From: Paracoccaceae bacterium
Lineage (GTDB): Bacteria; Pseudomonadota; Alphaproteobacteria; Rhodobacterales; Rhodobacteraceae
NCBI GenBank assembly: GCA_020425125.1
Contig: JAGQRV010000002.1
Span: 69,783-133,782 of the forward strand
DNA: 64,000 nt
Direction of reading: 5' to 3'
Shown one piece after another: positions 26,713 through 33,345 of this stretch. Each line of letters starts with the position of its first letter. Within the stretch, counting starts at the first letter, position 1. The position numbers and the translations under genes were made by a program. Below the pieces are notes generated by a model. That model did no database searches. It saw nothing but the letters and a program-made list of their open reading frames with translations, and was not told the origin of the DNA.

Positions 26713-27000
26713 GTGAGTGACGTGATTTCCATCGCCGTAGCCAAGCTGAGCGAGAAACTTGGGACCGGTTTCGACGGCACCGCCCGCTTCGACATCGAAG
26801 GCGAAGGATCGGTCTATGTGGACGGAGCCGGCGTGCGTGCTTCGGATGAGGAAGCCGACGTGGTCATATCGGCCGATGCCGACACCTTCCGCTCCATCAT
26901 CGAAGGCGATCTCGACCCGACTTCGGCCTTCATGAGCGGCCGGCTCAAGATCGACGGCGACATGGGCCAGGCAATGAAGCTGGGCTCGGCGCTGGCGTGA
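26713..27000 (+). CDS. SCP2 sterol-binding domain protein
   Basis: This 95-residue, single-domain SCP2-like protein (SDVISIAVAKLSEKLGTGFDG ... FMSGRLKIDGDMGQAMKL) has the lipid-binding fold used by sterol carrier protein 2 and by small bacterial relatives. The GTG at 26713 with AAGGAG at 26701-26706 gives a compact protein of family length; an ATG at 26647 in frame would add 22 residues. The stop overlaps the GTG start of the following alpha/beta hydrolase (GTGA). The two may form a lipid-handling pair. Confidence 0.85.
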   Translation: MSDVISIAVAKLSEKLGTGFDGTARFDIEGEGSVYVDGAGVRASDEEADVVISADADTFRSIIEGDLDPTSAFMSGRLKIDGDMGQAMKLGSALA

Positions 27001-27935
27001 AACTCGACCCCGCCCCCTTCCACCACCAGAGCGCCCGGGCCGCCGCGACGGCGCGCGCCTATTGGGCGCATGCGGCGGACGGGGTGCGGTTGCGGGTGGG
27101 GCACCTTTCCGACGGGCCATGCGGCACGGTGCTGCTGCTGCCCGGCCGGACCGAATACCTGGAAAAATACGGCGAGGCGGCGCGCGAGTTCGCCGCCCGC
27201 GGCTTCGGCGTCGTGGCGCTGGACTATCGTGGCCAGGGGCTGGCCGACCGTCTGCTGCCGGACCAGACCGTTGGGCACGTGGAGCACTTCTCGGACTATC
27301 AGCTCGACGCGCGCGTGCTCGTCGCCTTCGCGGAGGCCGCCGATCTGCCGCGGCCCTGGTTCGGGCTTGGGCATTCGCTGGGCGGAGCGATCCTGCTGCG
27401 GGCGCTGATCTCGGGAATGCCGGTGTCGGCCGCCGTGTTTTCCGCCCCGATGTGGCGCATCAACATGGCCGGGATGCTCTATCCCGTGGCCTGGCTGCTG
27501 GGCTGGATCGCCCATGCCACACAGATGGACGGGTGGGTGACGCCCGGCACGTCCCGCCGCACCTATGTACGCGAGGCAGATCCGGGCGACAACCTGCTGA
27601 CCAGCGATCCCGACATGATCCTGTTCATGCGCGGTCATCTCGAAGCGGTGGACGGGCTCGACCTGGGCGGCCCGTCGGTGCCGTGGCTTTACCGTGCGAT
27701 GGTCGAGTGCCGCAGCTTCCGCCGGATCCGGTCGCTGCCGGTCCCCTCGCTGACCTTCGCGCCCAGCGAAGACCGGATTGTGCGCACCGATGCGATGTAC
27801 GAATTGGTGAAGCGCTGGCCCAATGCGCAGATTCGGAATGTCGACGACGGCCGCCACGAAACCATGATGGAAACCCCCGCCCGCCGGCGCCGCTTCTTCG
27901 ACGAAAGCGCCGCCTTCTTCGACGCGCACCGCTAG
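26997..27935 (+). CDS. pldB: Alpha/beta hydrolase, lysophospholipase-like
   Basis: This 312-residue hydrolase resembles PldB-type lysophospholipases or monoacylglycerol lipases. The oxyanion and lid region ALDYRGQGLADRL is followed by the nucleophile elbow GLGHSLGGA (catalytic Ser), a late Asp in APSEDRIV and a His in DDGRHETMMETP. No signal peptide is seen, so it is probably cytoplasmic or membrane-associated. The GTG start overlaps the SCP2 stop, and its end overlaps the convergent Anbu stop by 4 bp. The lipid substrate is inferred from the family and its neighbour. Confidence 0.87.
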   Translation: MKLDPAPFHHQSARAAATARAYWAHAADGVRLRVGHLSDGPCGTVLLLPGRTEYLEKYGEAAREFAARGFGVVALDYRGQGLADRLLPDQTVGHVEHFSDYQLDARVLVAFAEAADLPRPWFGLGHSLGGAILLRALISGMPVSAAVFSAPMWRINMAGMLYPVAWLLGWIAHATQMDGWVTPGTSRRTYVREADPGDNLLTSDPDMILFMRGHLEAVDGLDLGGPSVPWLYRAMVECRSFRRIRSLPVPSLTFAPSEDRIVRTDAMYELVKRWPNAQIRNVDDGRHETMMETPARRRRFFDESAAFFDAHR

Positions 27936-28678
27936 TCGTTTGCGGGCGGCTCGACCACGATCTGCGAAAATCCGTCACGCAGCGCCTTGCTCCAGGCCAG
28001 GCTCATCGCCGCGAAGACCGGATCGCCATTCTCGATCCTGCGGTATTCGCTGAGCCGGCAATCGTCGTAGCGCACAATTGCAAGATCGAGCGGCATCCCT
28101 ACGGAAAGATTGGATCTCAGCGTCGAATCCATCGACAGCAGAACGGCCTTCTTGGCGTCCGAAATCGACGTGTCGAGCGACACCACCCGGTCGAGAATGG
28201 GCTTGCCGTACTTGTGTTCGCCGATCTGCAGGAACGGCGTGTCCGCCGTGGCCTCGATATGGTTGCCCTCGGGATAGATCAGGAACAGGCGCATCGCGCC
28301 GCCGCGCCGCTGCCCACCGAGGATCACGCTCGCGGTTCCGCGCGCCTGGCTGTTGCGGCTGAGCTTCTCCGAAATGTCCTCGGCTACCCGGGCCAGTTCG
28401 GCGCCGACGATCTCGGCCACGTCGAGCATCGTCCGCGCCTTCATGATCGAGGTCTCTTCGGTTGCGTCGTCGTCGTCGATCGCCTCCTGCAGCTTGGCCA
28501 TGGTGGTCTGGGTGACCGACAGGCTGCCGGCGGTGAGGATCACGATGACGCGCTCGCCCGGATTCTCGAAGACATACATCTTCTTGTACACCGAGATGTT
28601 GTCGAGCCCGGCATTGGTCCGGGTATCGCTCAGCATCACGATGCCTTCTTTCAGCAGAAGGCCGACGCAGTAGGTCAT
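27932..28678 (-). CDS. Anbu, proteasome-type peptidase
   Basis: This 248-residue protein of the Anbu family is an ancestral proteasome beta-type Ntn hydrolase. It begins MTYCVGLLLKEGIVMLSDTR, so removal of Met exposes the Thr nucleophile, with the conserved Asp in SDTRTNAG and Lys in VYKKMYVF. Choosing the ATG at 28678 instead of 28687 is essential because only it puts Thr at position 2. It is the last gene of a four-gene minus-strand cluster (ATP-grasp, alpha-E, transglutaminase, Anbu) known in many proteobacteria. The native substrate is unknown. Confidence 0.93.
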   Translation of the reverse strand: MTYCVGLLLKEGIVMLSDTRTNAGLDNISVYKKMYVFENPGERVIVILTAGSLSVTQTTMAKLQEAIDDDDATEETSIMKARTMLDVAEIVGAELARVAEDISEKLSRNSQARGTASVILGGQRRGGAMRLFLIYPEGNHIEATADTPFLQIGEHKYGKPILDRVVSLDTSISDAKKAVLLSMDSTLRSNLSVGMPLDLAIVRYDDCRLSEYRRIENGDPVFAAMSLAWSKALRDGFSQIVVEPPAND

Positions 28679-28719
28679 CGTACTCACCCGGGCGGACGAA
28701 AGGAAACGGCGCGCCCGAT

Positions 28720-29562
28720 CTATTGCTGAATCGCCTCCACCGCAACTGCCACCTCAAGCTCTTCTCCGCCGCGCCCCAATGCCAGACCGCGGATCGGCGC
28801 GCCGTCGAAGGCGTCGAACCCCGAGCACAGCCGGATATAGCGGTCATCCGGGCAGCAGGAATTGGCGGCGTCGAATCCGACCCAGCCAAGACCGTCGACA
28901 TGGATCTCGACCCAGGCATGGCTGGCCTGCGCGCCGACCCGGACCGCCTCGGCATGGAGGGCGTCGGCATCGCCCGCAAAAAGGTAGCCGGTCACGTAGC
29001 GGGCGGGCATCTCGACGATCCGCGCCATCGCGATCAGGGCGTGGGCATGGTCCTGGCACACACCCGCCCCACCGGCGAGGGCCTCGGCGGCGGTCGTGTG
29101 CGCATCGGTCGCATCCGGCGTATAGGCGATCGCCTCGGCGACGGCCGCCGACAGCGCATGGGCCCGGTCGAGCTCGGCCGATTCGGCGAACTCGGCCACG
29201 GAGTCCCTTGCCAGCTCCTCCAGGGCGACATCCACCCGCGTCGCGCGGGTCGACCGGAGATAGGCCATCGGCGGCACCTTTTCGCGGTGCCCGCGCAGGA
29301 CCCCGGCCAGGTCGGTGGTCTGGACCGTCCCCCGGACCTCGACGGTCACGCTGTCCACCGGCCCCTCGACGCGGACCGTACAGGTCTCGTCGCCCGCCCC
29401 GTCGCGGAACTCGGCGCCGCGGACGCCGCTCTCGGTCGTCACCGACCAGTCAAGCACCTGCTGCCCGTCGAAGACGGACGGCTGCAGACGCTGACTTTGC
29501 AGGACCGCCCGCGGCGGCTCGTCGTAGCGGTAGATGGTCTTGTGCAGGACCGCGAGCTTCAT
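28720..29562 (-). CDS. Transglutaminase-like cysteine peptidase family protein
   Basis: This 280-residue protein has an N-terminal beta domain (KLAVLHKTIYRYDEPPRAVL), then the transglutaminase-like core. The catalytic Cys is in GGAGVCQDHAHALIAMAR, the His in ASHAWVEIHVDGLGW and the Asp in FDAANSC. The family includes peptidases and amide-forming or amide-cleaving enzymes. Its ATG overlaps the stop of the alpha-E gene (ATGA), and the Anbu gene begins 41 bp downstream. In this cluster it is proposed to act on the peptide tag made by the ATP-grasp/alpha-E pair, but this is untested. Confidence 0.92.
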   Translation of the reverse strand: MKLAVLHKTIYRYDEPPRAVLQSQRLQPSVFDGQQVLDWSVTTESGVRGAEFRDGAGDETCTVRVEGPVDSVTVEVRGTVQTTDLAGVLRGHREKVPPMAYLRSTRATRVDVALEELARDSVAEFAESAELDRAHALSAAVAEAIAYTPDATDAHTTAAEALAGGAGVCQDHAHALIAMARIVEMPARYVTGYLFAGDADALHAEAVRVGAQASHAWVEIHVDGLGWVGFDAANSCCPDDRYIRLCSGFDAFDGAPIRGLALGRGGEELEVAVAVEAIQQ

Positions 29563-30512
29563 GCCATGGCTCCGATCAGATATGTGTCGCTGACGCGCCG
29601 GCCCAGATCCGCCACCTTGCCCTTGAAGTCCTCAAGGAACTCGTGGAGCCCGCGATCGAAGATGTCGGTCGTGCGCGTCTCGATCAGTTCGGCCAGCAAC
29701 CCGCGCGCAGCGGATTGCACGTCCGTGGAGCGGTGATGGCCGTGTGAAAGCCGGTCGAGATGATCGTTGACCCCCTGCACCGCCGCCCTCAACGACCGCG
29801 GACAGGCCGGATTCAGGATCAACAGATCGACGATCTTGGTCGCCGTCACCTCGCCACCATAGGCCCAGTGGAAGGCCCGATGCATCTGCATCCCCCTCAG
29901 CAGCGTCTGCCACTGCACATTGTCGAGCCCCGAGCCGACGAAACCTGCATCGGGCAGCAGGACATAATATTTCACGTCGAGGAACCGGGAGGTGTTGTCG
30001 GCGCGCTCCAGATGGGCACCGACATGGATGAAATCATAGCCTTCGTTCCTGAGCAGCGTGGTCTGGATCGCCCCCGCCACCAACGCGTTCTGGCGCGCCG
30101 TCCACTCGGTGAGCTGGGTGATGCCAAGCTCGCTCCGCGGGGTGCGCTCAAGCTCGCGCAACTCCTGGAAGGCCCCGTTCAGCGCATCCCAGACCGGACC
30201 GGTCAGCGCAGTGCGCACGATCCGCGCATTCTCGCGCGAGGCGGCGATGCACGATGCGACCGAGGACGCGTTCTCGCGGTCGAAGAACAGGTGGCTGACC
30301 ACGTTGCGCTCCACCGCCTCGCCATATTTCTTCTCGAATCCGGCATAGCTGCCGCTGGCCTGCAGGATCGGCTCCCATTCGCTTCGGTATCCGTCGGCCG
30401 TGTCGGGGATCAGGTTCATCCGCGCGCCCACATGGATGAGGCGTGCCATGGTCTCGGCCCGCTCCATGTAGCGGCCCAGCCAGAAGAGGTTGTCGGCGGT
30501 CCGGCTCAGCAT
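29559..30512 (-). CDS. Alpha-E domain protein (DUF403)
   Basis: This 317-residue all-helical protein starts MLSRTADNLFWLGRYMERAE, the hallmark of the alpha-E superfamily. The DFIHVGAHLERADNTSRFLDVKY and MHRAFHWAYGGEVTATKIVDLL segments also fit. Alpha-E proteins nearly always accompany circularly permuted ATP-grasp ligases and are thought to be their partners. The gene starts 7 bp after the ATP-grasp stop and overlaps the transglutaminase gene downstream by 4 bp. Confidence 0.93.
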   Translation of the reverse strand: MLSRTADNLFWLGRYMERAETMARLIHVGARMNLIPDTADGYRSEWEPILQASGSYAGFEKKYGEAVERNVVSHLFFDRENASSVASCIAASRENARIVRTALTGPVWDALNGAFQELRELERTPRSELGITQLTEWTARQNALVAGAIQTTLLRNEGYDFIHVGAHLERADNTSRFLDVKYYVLLPDAGFVGSGLDNVQWQTLLRGMQMHRAFHWAYGGEVTATKIVDLLILNPACPRSLRAAVQGVNDHLDRLSHGHHRSTDVQSAARGLLAELIETRTTDIFDRGLHEFLEDFKGKVADLGRRVSDTYLIGAMA

Positions 30513-30519
30513 GTCGTCC

Positions 30520-31935
30520 TCACTCCGCCAATACCCAGGTGTCCTTGACGCCGCCGCCCTGCGACGAGTTCACCACGAGCGACCCTTCCTTCAAGGCGAC
30601 CCGCGTCAGCCCTCCCGGTACCAGCTCGACGCTCTCTCCGACGAGGCAATAGGGGCGCAGGTCGACGTGGCGGGGCGCGATCCCCTCGGCGACGAAGGTC
30701 GGGCAGGTCGACAGCGCCAGGGTCGGCTGCGCGATGTAGTTCTGCGGGTTCTCCTCGATCCGCAACCGGAAGTTCTCCAGCTCGCTCTGGGTCGCCCGCG
30801 GCCCGATCAGCATGCCGTACCCGCCAGAGCCATGCACCTCCTTGACCACGAGATCCTTCAGGTTGGCCAGCACATGTCGGCAATCGTCCGACTTGGCGCA
30901 TTGCCATGTCGGCACGTTGTGCAGGATCGGCTCCTCGCCCAGATAGAACCGCACCATTTCCGGCACGAAGGTATAGATCGCCTTGTCGTCGGCGACGCCC
31001 GCCCCGGGCGCCGAGGCGATGGCGATCCCGCCCGATCGGTAGACATTCATCAGCCCGGGCACACCCAGCATGCTGTCGGGACGGAAGCAGAGCGGGTCGA
31101 GGAAGGAATCGTCGATCCGGCGATAGATCACGTCGACCCGCTGGGGACCCCGGGTCGTGCGCATGTAGCAGAAATCGCCCTCGACATAGAGGTCCTGCCC
31201 CTCGACGAGTTCCACCCCCATCATGTCGGCCAGGAACGAGTGCTCGTAATAGGCCGAGTTGAAATGTCCGGGCGTCAGGATGACCACGTTCGGCTCGCCG
31301 TCGCATTTCGCCGGGGCGACCGACGCCAGCGTCCTCCGCAGCACTTCGGGATAGCTCTCGACCGGCTCGATCCGGTTCTCGCGGAACAGGCTCGGGAACA
31401 TCCGCATCATGATCTCGCGGTTCTCAAGCATGTAGGACACGCCCGACGGCGTCCGGCAATTGTCCTCGAGCACGAAGAACTCGTCCGGACCGGTACGCAC
31501 CAGATCGATGCCGACAATGTGGCTGTAGACCGATTTCGGCGGCTTGATCCCCACCACGGCCTTTTCGAACGCCTCGTTGCGGTAGACGAGCCGCGCCGGG
31601 ATCCGGCCCGCCTTCACGATCTCGCCGCGATCGTAGACATCCGTCAGGAAAGCGTTCAGCGCCCGCGCCCGCTGCTTGATGCCGCGTGCGAGCCGTGCCC
31701 ATTCCCGATTCGTGAAGACACGCGGGAACATGTCGAAGGGGATCAGGCGATCCGGATCGCCGCCTTCGCCGTAGACCGCAAAGGTGATCCCGATCCGCCG
31801 GAACAGCGCCTCGGCCTCGGCCTGCTTCAGGTTGCGCAATTCGACCGGCATGTTCCGCTGCCAGGATTCGAGCCCCTGGTAAGGGACCCGGATTTCTTCG
31901 CCTTCGTACATTTCGTTGAAGTAAGTCACTGCCAT
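30520..31935 (-). CDS. Circularly permuted ATP-grasp protein (type 2)
   Basis: This 471-residue ATP-grasp family ligase begins MAVTYFNEMYEGEEIRVPYQ. Its body matches the DUF404/DUF407-type circularly permuted ATP-grasp (RPDSMLGVPGLMNVYRSGGIAIASAPGAGVADDKA; HGSGGYGMLIGP; LSTCPTF). It is predicted to form peptide-like bonds. It leads the Anbu cluster, and the 400-bp region upstream should hold the promoter. The substrate is unknown. GGGAGAA lies about 12 bases before the ATG on the minus strand. Confidence 0.93.
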   Translation of the reverse strand: MAVTYFNEMYEGEEIRVPYQGLESWQRNMPVELRNLKQAEAEALFRRIGITFAVYGEGGDPDRLIPFDMFPRVFTNREWARLARGIKQRARALNAFLTDVYDRGEIVKAGRIPARLVYRNEAFEKAVVGIKPPKSVYSHIVGIDLVRTGPDEFFVLEDNCRTPSGVSYMLENREIMMRMFPSLFRENRIEPVESYPEVLRRTLASVAPAKCDGEPNVVILTPGHFNSAYYEHSFLADMMGVELVEGQDLYVEGDFCYMRTTRGPQRVDVIYRRIDDSFLDPLCFRPDSMLGVPGLMNVYRSGGIAIASAPGAGVADDKAIYTFVPEMVRFYLGEEPILHNVPTWQCAKSDDCRHVLANLKDLVVKEVHGSGGYGMLIGPRATQSELENFRLRIEENPQNYIAQPTLALSTCPTFVAEGIAPRHVDLRPYCLVGESVELVPGGLTRVALKEGSLVVNSSQGGGVKDTWVLAE

Positions 31936-32370
31936 CTGGCTTGCCTGTTCTCCCGGCTACGGCCTCTGACTCGCATGCGTCGTTAACGGAGGAAAGAGTG
32001 CATGGCCCTCAAAGGCAATCCCCCCACGGGCTACTGGCACATTCCCTGCGCCAAGTGCCGAATTTTTAGGCGCGGCTTGGCCATCCCCCGACGGCACCGC
32101 GCGTCGGCACCGGTCTCCCCGGTCATGATGGCACATTCGCCGCGCCCCGCAAACCGGCCGTCTGCCCCATCGTCGGCCGTCCAAATCAACCGTCGGAATG
32201 TCTCTGGGGTAACGTCCGGCATCTGTCCCGCGGCCTCACCGGCAGACACGAGACCAGATCGCAACATATCGTGTTAGCGCCACCGGTCACCGTTGAGCGC
32301 TTCGCTGCAACGCGGCATCATCGGTGCGGACGAGTAAACCGCCCGTATGATTCGCACCAAGGAGAGCCTG
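31936..32370. other. Intergenic region between the Anbu cluster and the GH32/68-like gene
   Basis: This 435-bp gap is bounded by divergent genes. No RNA gene is recognised. A 91-codon plus-strand ORF (32002-32277) with GGAGGA upstream and a CAKC motif, and a 78-codon minus-strand ORF (32031-32267), overlap each other. Neither has known family features, and third-position base use is mixed in the second half, so I do not call either as a gene. The promoters of both flanking units probably lie here. Confidence 0.4.
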
Positions 32371-33345
32371 ATGGTCCTGGCATTGCCCGACAAATGGATC
32401 TGGGACAGCTGGTACGCCCATGACGGCGCCCGCTGGCATTGCTTCCACCTTCAGGCCGACCGCGCGCTGGGTGACCCCGAGCTTCGTCACTGGAGCATGA
32501 GCCAGGGCCACGCGGTCAGTACCGACCTGACGACCTGGGAGCATCTGGGGACCGGTTTCGCCCCCGCGCAGGAACCGGCCTGGGACGACTTCACGACCTG
32601 GACCGGGTCCGTCGTCTGCGACGACGACGCGATCTGGCACCTCTTCTACACCGGCACCTGCCGCGCCGAGAAGGGAATGTACCAGCGCGTCGGTCACGCC
32701 ACCTCCATCGATCTTCACAACTGGTGCCGGGTCGGCGACGGACTTTGTCTCGATCTGACAGGACCGAACGCCGCGGCCTATGAAGCGCGGCATCAGGTCG
32801 GCTTCTGGCCCGACCGGGCGATGCGCGACCCTTTCGTGATGCGCGATCCGGACGGGCCCGGGTGGCTGATGGTCTTCACCGCACGCGCACCTGGCATCGC
32901 GGAAGCCAACGCCGGCGGTGCCATCGGGCTGGCCACATCGCCAGACCTGATGACCTGGACGCTTGAGCCCCCGGTCTTCACCGGCGCTTTCGGACAGCTC
33001 GAAGTGCCGCAGATCTTTCATCACGCAGGGCGCTGGTACTGCCTCTTCTGCACCGCCGAGAACCATTTCTCGCGCGCGCAGGCGACGGCGACGCCGGGCG
33101 GTCCGGTCACCGGGTCGCACTATCTGATCGGCGACGGACCGCGCGGCCCCTGGCGGGTGGCTCCGGGCGCATTTCTTGACGGCGGCCTGCCCTGCCCGCG
33201 CTATGCCGCGCGGATCGTCGAGACGGCGGACGGGCTGAACATCATCGGCTTCGCCGACCGGCCGCAGGGCGAATTCGTCGGCGAACTGACCGACCCCGAT
33301 CCGGTGATCGCGGGCGATGACGGGCTCCTGCGCGTGCTCAGGTAG
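32371..33345 (+). CDS. Glycoside hydrolase-like five-bladed propeller protein (GH32/GH68-type)
   Basis: This 324-residue protein has the clan GH-J pattern. An N-terminal Asp-rich blade (LPDKWIWDSWYAHDGARWHC, Asp at 12 and 18) is followed by WTGSVVCDDDAIWHLFYTG, an RDP motif at residues 152-154 (MRDPFVMRD), and Glu-211 in LEVPQIF. These are the positions of the nucleophile, transition-state stabiliser and acid/base. It lacks a signal peptide, so it may act inside the cell. AAGGAG (32359-32364) supports the ATG at 32371 over the ATG at 32347. It stands alone, convergent with mfd. The substrate (sucrose, fructan or another sugar) is not inferable, and a GH43-like alternative is possible. Confidence 0.75.
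   Translation: MVLALPDKWIWDSWYAHDGARWHCFHLQADRALGDPELRHWSMSQGHAVSTDLTTWEHLGTGFAPAQEPAWDDFTTWTGSVVCDDDAIWHLFYTGTCRAEKGMYQRVGHATSIDLHNWCRVGDGLCLDLTGPNAAAYEARHQVGFWPDRAMRDPFVMRDPDGPGWLMVFTARAPGIAEANAGGAIGLATSPDLMTWTLEPPVFTGAFGQLEVPQIFHHAGRWYCLFCTAENHFSRAQATATPGGPVTGSHYLIGDGPRGPWRVAPGAFLDGGLPCPRYAARIVETADGLNIIGFADRPQGEFVGELTDPDPVIAGDDGLLRVLR

Follow-up and report, generated by a model that had tools for sequence, protein, structure and literature searches.

The window analysed here is a stretch of 64,000 nucleotides (nt) from a Paracoccaceae bacterium (contig JAGQRV010000002.1). At positions 27932-31935 of its minus strand lie four consecutive genes, every one with an intact frame, that encode in order a circularly permuted (CP) ATP-grasp ligase, an Alpha-E protein, a transglutaminase-like enzyme and Anbu, a proteasome beta-like hydrolase (Table 1). 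An earlier note, made from the letters alone, had described a complete Anbu cluster here; its coordinates are exact, all four genes are present and their identities are borne out by Pfam matches for all four. The published Anbu operon (PMC5666114, PMC6376114) has the same four genes, in the same order and with the same catalytic residues, and the window shows no difference of kind from it. The window's cluster is thus, with near certainty, the orthologous operon of that family, an ordinary member with low local novelty. Anbu was named in 2008 and its job is still unknown (PMC5666114); the earlier note was right to speak of a known family with unsolved biology.

Gene content and predicted functions of the Anbu operon

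The genes are separated by 7 nt, overlap by 4 nt and leave 41 nt before the Anbu start codon, a spacing typical of a single transcript and suggestive of co-transcription. The Anbu start is the ATG at 28678, whose Met is present in 64 of 66 relatives, although a mechanical open reading frame (ORF) finder had picked the GTG at 28687. Read from this ATG, the catalytic residues are Thr2, Asp18 and Lys33, conserved in 65, 66 and 66 of the 66 gathered relatives, respectively, and the Thr-2 named in the earlier note is correct. Its Cys/His/Asp assignment for the transglutaminase-like enzyme also holds: all three residues are in place and are conserved in 85, 86 and 86 of 86 proteins, a comparison that includes the transglutaminases of Anbu-free sets. 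Neither a disrupted frame nor a lost Thr-2 start, which the earlier note had named as grounds for doubt, was found in the window. Its view that the system looks functional is supported to the extent of the intact frames and conserved residues; when Anbu from Yersinia bercovieri, from a Hyphomicrobium and from P. aeruginosa was assayed on three standard proteasome substrates in published work, no activity was found (PMC6376114).

Three of the four proteins have sequence matches in the PDB. By phmmer, Anbu matches 5loy (E-value 2.4e-72), 5nyj (1.7e-65) and 5nyf (6.5e-65), and an open split-ring, or lock-washer, assembly has been published for Anbu of other species (PMC5666114, PMC6376114). Residues 6-470 of the ATP-grasp protein align to 3n6x (phmmer E-value 2.4e-196), for which 'putative glutathionylspermidine synthase' is the depositors' label only; release of phosphate from ATP has been published for the ATP-grasp protein of Y. 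bercovieri (PMC6376114). The transglutaminase-like protein has a weak match (2.6e-10). Alpha-E had no match in the PDB sequence search at E<=1. Its AlphaFold model is all-helical (predicted local distance difference test score, pLDDT, 92.3; predicted template modelling score, pTM, 0.91), and no recognised fold match was found for it. Eleven of its residues are invariant among 49 sequences (L2, E17, R24, R100, N112, G147, G165, E169, R170, L205 and P238).

Table 1 Genes of the Anbu operon in the window.
Gene product	Position	Strand	Length and Pfam matches (E-value)
CP ATP-grasp ligase, operon gene 1	30520..31935	-	471 amino acids (aa); PF14403 1.4e-165
Alpha-E protein	29559..30512	-	317 aa; PF04168 4.7e-87
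Transglutaminase-like cysteine enzyme, Cys169/His215/Asp231	28720..29562	-	280 aa; PF01841 1.4e-21, PF08379 6e-15
Anbu, proteasome beta-like Ntn (N-terminal nucleophile) hydrolase, Met-Thr start	27932..28678	-	248 aa; PF00227 5.6e-07

The operon travels as a unit

Anbu was found in 139 of 198 genomes of the window's family. Its closest named relatives are from Rhodobacteraceae, the best being that of Pseudorhodobacter wandonensis (75% identity, L195) in a comparison from which the genome of the window may be missing. Anbu identities fall mostly into two groups, of about 61-74% and 40-56%, and all four genes share this split in the fetched loci. In the ATP-grasp tree, the window belongs to a supported set of 18 rows, whereas a supported set of 25 contains most of the other family members sampled; rows from other families occur in both. 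Pairwise distances between 55 complete clusters agree from one of the four proteins to another, with r of 0.81-0.93 and a permutation maximum of 0.23 (500 permutations per pair). The Anbu operon travels as a unit. Of 60 chosen neighbourhoods, 49 keep the gene order of the window (ATP-grasp, Alpha-E, transglutaminase and Anbu, in one direction with short gaps), as do 61 of 80 named loci, a set in which contig ends cut some loci.

Two of the 49 neighbourhoods carry one extra ORF inside the operon, and these inserts (191 aa without a Pfam match in L075; a CMD family member in L107) look sporadic. Genes in the relatives' loci were called with a simple codon-usage script that missed some, such as Anbu in L167, which was found by genome search.

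Of 299 genomes sampled from the phylum, 102 have Anbu, 156 have Alpha-E and 84 have DUF2126, discussed below. Alpha-E was present in 101 of the 102 Anbu genomes, whereas 55 of the 156 Alpha-E genomes lacked Anbu, 33 of them with DUF2126 and 22 with Alpha-E alone. All 84 DUF2126 genomes had Alpha-E, and among Alpha-E genomes Anbu and DUF2126 were independent (p 0.31). From this co-occurrence, Anbu depends on ATP-grasp and Alpha-E and not the reverse; it looks like an accessory add-on to a more widespread ATP-grasp/Alpha-E core. The sole Anbu genome without an Alpha-E match (G290, L165:6035-6775) also had no ATP-grasp match, which could be gene loss or an assembly gap. Anbu stood alone in 8 of the 60 chosen neighbourhoods; seven of these genomes (G380, G216, G291, G229, G399, G437 and G213) encode Alpha-E elsewhere and the eighth (G140) has an ATP-grasp match elsewhere. 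Ten named loci, some cut by contig ends, also had Anbu alone, a count of loci and not of genomes. In L112, L118 and L122, from three genomes that belong to a single family, a solitary Anbu gene adjoins mutS.

A second gene set with a putative amidoligase domain

The window's genome carries a second set (G000:C45, L005:7019-13682) comprising a transglutaminase, an ATP-grasp-Alpha-E fusion of 875 aa and a transglutaminase-DUF2126 fusion of 1110 aa, DUF2126 being labelled 'putative amidoligase' in Pfam. This set shares ATP-grasp, Alpha-E and transglutaminase domains with the Anbu operon and differs from it in the extra putative amidoligase domain, the fusion of ATP-grasp to Alpha-E and, in the window's genome, the absence of Anbu from the stretch. 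The 39 DUF2126 neighbourhoods that we fetched are not a random sample; 13 of them were picked for having Anbu on their contig. Anbu adjoins the transglutaminase-DUF2126 gene in 10 neighbourhoods (L126-L130 and L132-L136), and some of the others have both kinds of ATP-grasp/Alpha-E gene together without Anbu. The fusion and the adjacency argue for joint action of ATP-grasp and Alpha-E and for related chemistry in the two sets. Judged by its description (PMC5491218), Burkholderia I35_5080-83 looks related to the DUF2126 set.

Seven Anbu clusters had no transglutaminase of their own, a count that covers the clusters and not stand-alone transglutaminases in the rest of the genomes. Four (L082, L086, L199 and L243) have a transglutaminase-DUF2126 fusion next door and three (L200, L203 and L124) have no DUF2126 match in the genome. 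A rule by which each cluster has strictly one of the two, its own transglutaminase or the fusion, fails on these three, which have neither. L131, first called transglutaminase-less by the simple gene caller, does have the gene.

No recurring tag gene or fifth partner beside the clusters

The earlier note had brought up a tag-and-degrade system and proposed looking for a small tag gene near other copies of the cluster. Run on the neighbourhoods of 106 loci, and not on whole genomes, this search did not find one: the 993 small ORFs (20-100 aa) within 1.5 kb of clusters formed families in at most 3 loci, and the 1540 farther away formed families in at most 2. Small ORFs ending in GGQ or GGE were not enriched (one near, one far). 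In the window, a 78-aa ORF (32031-32267, minus strand) that ends in Gln and lies upstream of the ATP-grasp gene was rejected as a tag: compared with the sequences upstream of the ATP-grasp gene in 52 further loci, its best foreign match had an E-value of 0.052. The tag-and-degrade idea therefore gains nothing from these data.

Clustering of 783 neighbour proteins gave 11 families present in five or more loci. Most reflect the synteny of close relatives or are common families, and we rejected a conserved fifth gene. The synteny families of the window's group are a Suv3-like helicase (10 loci) and an alpha/beta hydrolase (9), both including the window and named from its own members, together with oligopeptidase F, which is in 8 loci with the window not among them, a TPR protein (7 loci) and an SCP2 protein (6). 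Other recurrent families are LysR (10 loci), histidine kinase (9), aldehyde dehydrogenase (6), SDR (5) and an ABC-transporter ATPase found within 5 kb in 14 loci and adjacent in 3. A zinc-ribbon/Peptidase_Mx family (for example, L124:8409-9512 and L160:14719-15912) occurs in 5 loci with ATP-grasp/Alpha-E clusters and is adjacent in 4. No AAA+ unfoldase was found among the recurrent neighbour families scanned, a genome-wide search for one not having been made.

In the window itself, a convergent alpha/beta hydrolase gene (26997-27935, plus strand) shares 4 nt with the Anbu gene at their ends, and the helicase/hydrolase block downstream of the operon is also seen in relatives. A GH32-like gene (32347-33345) is divergent from the operon; at its place, 8 relatives have oligopeptidase F on the opposite strand, adjacent to the operon in 6.

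Links to nitrogen limitation and urease

Several published studies connect these genes to nitrogen. In Pseudomonas putida, expression of the proteasome beta-like gene PP_2685 and the ATP-grasp gene PP_2688 was higher by 4.4 and 4.0 log2 units on nitrate than on ammonium, and when four promoters were tried as nitrogen sensors, those of PP_2688 and urtA responded and those of PP_2685 and glnK gave no response (PMC8050072). PP_2686-2688 were up 11 to 37-fold, among 24 genes raised in all strains under nitrogen limitation, an induction attributed to NtrB/NtrC (PMC7801951), and PP2685-2687 were also up under nitrogen limitation (PMC3325844). A Burkholderia cenocepacia DUF403/404/407/transglutaminase cluster is NtrC-dependent (PMC5491218), and in marine metagenomes these domains associate with urea-metabolism domains (PMC3597751).

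Because of these published links, we searched the 198 family genomes for urease. Matches were found in 162 (158 above the family cut-off), of which eight with E-values of 1e-5 or worse were set aside. Of the 139 Anbu genomes, 116 had urease, as did 38 of the 59 Anbu-free ones (p 0.005); with the eight weak matches included, the counts were 123 and 39 (p 0.0004). These statistics are uncorrected for genome size or descent. At least three genomes have Anbu and urease within 10 kb, versus 0.58 expected under random placement in 4 Mb (p 0.02); the two match lists were compared by eye and the proximity counts are a lower bound. In a fourth genome (L169) the two lie about 15 kb apart.

In three genera of the window's family, the Anbu operon touches the urease operon (L166:6608-17064, L167:4670-13745 and L168:4707-14566). 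The arrangements differ: in L168, ureG is directly upstream of the ATP-grasp gene on the same strand; in L166, the layout is that of L168 except that a further transglutaminase-like gene (L166:10611-11387) stands between the two; and in L167, ureD is divergent from the ATP-grasp gene. The three occupy separate supported places in the ATP-grasp tree. Within the genus of L166, ureG was seen beside the operon in 5 of 9 genomes and was not seen within 1.5 kb in the other 4. A transglutaminase-like match similar to that of L166 also lies upstream of the ATP-grasp gene in L285, L287 and L288, where no urease match was seen within 1.5 kb. The titles and abstracts of open-licence literature, among the matches listed, contained no Anbu-urease link. 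Together, the urease adjacency in three clades and the published nitrogen-limitation data hint at a role in nitrogen shortage.

Proposed function and alternatives

Our best reading, held tentatively and short of probable, is that the operon runs a cycle of amide-bond formation and cleavage linked to nitrogen limitation, with Anbu accessory to the ATP-grasp/Alpha-E core; the chemistry is inferred. At the expense of ATP, ATP-grasp together with Alpha-E would couple an amine or amino acid to a carboxylate of a small metabolite or peptide. Two enzymes, the transglutaminase-like one with its cysteine and Anbu with its threonine, would then transfer or hydrolyse such bonds. The cycle would run under nitrogen shortage, alongside urea uptake and urease, and may help the cell to hold or recover amine nitrogen. 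Anbu would be an accessory hydrolase of this core, and general protein degradation would not centre on it. Support for this reading comes from the near-constant company of Alpha-E with Anbu and its presence in every DUF2126 genome, the matched distances of the four proteins, the ATP-grasp-Alpha-E fusion, the urease adjacency and co-occurrence, and the published nitrogen responses. A more specific version, unlikely as a whole, makes Anbu the amidase of the cycle. Under nitrogen limitation, ATP-grasp/Alpha-E would conjugate an amine, drawn for example from pools derived from urea, polyamines or amino acids, to a peptide-like carrier, and Anbu and the transglutaminase-like enzyme would set it free again. 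In this version the cycle is set against urease in some Rhodobacteraceae and the transglutaminase-DUF2126 set forms a second branch of it.

Several observations count against the proposed cycle. No peptidase activity of Anbu was detected in the published assays given above. In P. putida, the PP_2685 promoter was the one of the two tried from this operon that gave no response to nitrogen (PMC8050072), and the Anbu gene rose just 1.1 to 4.8-fold in the study in which the other three rose 11-37-fold (PMC7801951). A further paper records unchanged expression of the operon in a range of other conditions (PMC5666114). The urease co-occurrence carries no correction, adjacency is rare (at least 3 of the 139 Anbu genomes of the family), no urease was found in any of 80 named loci with up to 10 kb around each, and the urease match of the window's genome is on another contig (G000:C95).

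Regulatory-site searches, which used untrained consensus forms for sigma-54, NtrC, FNR, Crp and NtcA, add to these points. Upstream of the window's ATP-grasp gene no sigma-54 (-24/-12) box was found, and NtrC-type palindromes in its group showed no clear excess (strict 0 of 20; loose 4 of 20 versus 2.69 expected). Outside the family they numbered 1 of 13 (strict) and 5 of 13 (loose), with 0.08 and 1.26 expected. The sigma-54 scan of 53 upstream regions gave three forward matches (L109, L117 and L121) and two on the reverse strand, against a shuffle mean of 0.33, and that of 61 named loci gave no forward and one reverse match. The boxes in L109, L117 and L121, loci outside the window's family, begin 59-85 nt upstream of the estimated ATP-grasp start. 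The FNR, Crp and NtcA patterns gave nothing convincing upstream in the window's group. There is no sign from sequence of nitrogen control at the window's locus itself.

The Pup-proteasome system has a ligase and a proteasome-type hydrolase, a pairing that the window's system shares. A tag-and-degrade pathway of the Pup or ubiquitin kind, in which ATP-grasp/Alpha-E tags proteins, the transglutaminase-like enzyme edits the tags and Anbu degrades or detags, would fit the homology of Anbu to proteasome beta subunits and its intact Thr/Asp/Lys residues, and has been proposed in the literature (PMC6376114). Against it, no tag gene recurs beside the clusters, small-ORF families within 1.5 kb being confined to at most 3 of the 106 loci (a tag gene in another part of the genome, or a tag other than a protein, lies outside that search), GGQ/GGE endings are not enriched, the 78-aa ORF of the window is not conserved and the recurrent neighbour families scanned include no AAA+ partner. 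We consider this pathway unlikely, and favour the nitrogen-linked amide cycle over it as the best reading.

Slightly better placed, though still doubtful, is a role in making one particular peptide-like metabolite for secretion or storage, with Anbu and the transglutaminase-like enzyme as maturation enzymes. The wider system does contain two ligase types, CP ATP-grasp and DUF2126 (by its Pfam label), and the Anbu and DUF2126 sets occur together in many genomes; against this, the 11 neighbour families include neither a dedicated exporter nor another biosynthetic gene that recurs beside the clusters, the ABC ATPase being adjacent in just 3 of its 14 loci. Unspecific starvation turnover, with Anbu as a bulk peptidase feeding nitrogen recovery and the other genes incidental, would account for the induction reported for nitrogen-limited P. 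putida (PMC8050072, PMC3325844). It is the least probable of these explanations, quite improbable in our view, as it does not sit well with Alpha-E in all but one of the 102 Anbu genomes, the matched distances of the four proteins or the failure of published assays to find Anbu activity on standard peptide substrates (PMC6376114).

The cluster in the window is itself an ordinary orthologue, and the lead of value is the nitrogen and urease connection in its relatives. Anbu is a member of the proteasome family, and the urease adjacency, together with the published induction, turns its 'unknown substrate' into a focused test.

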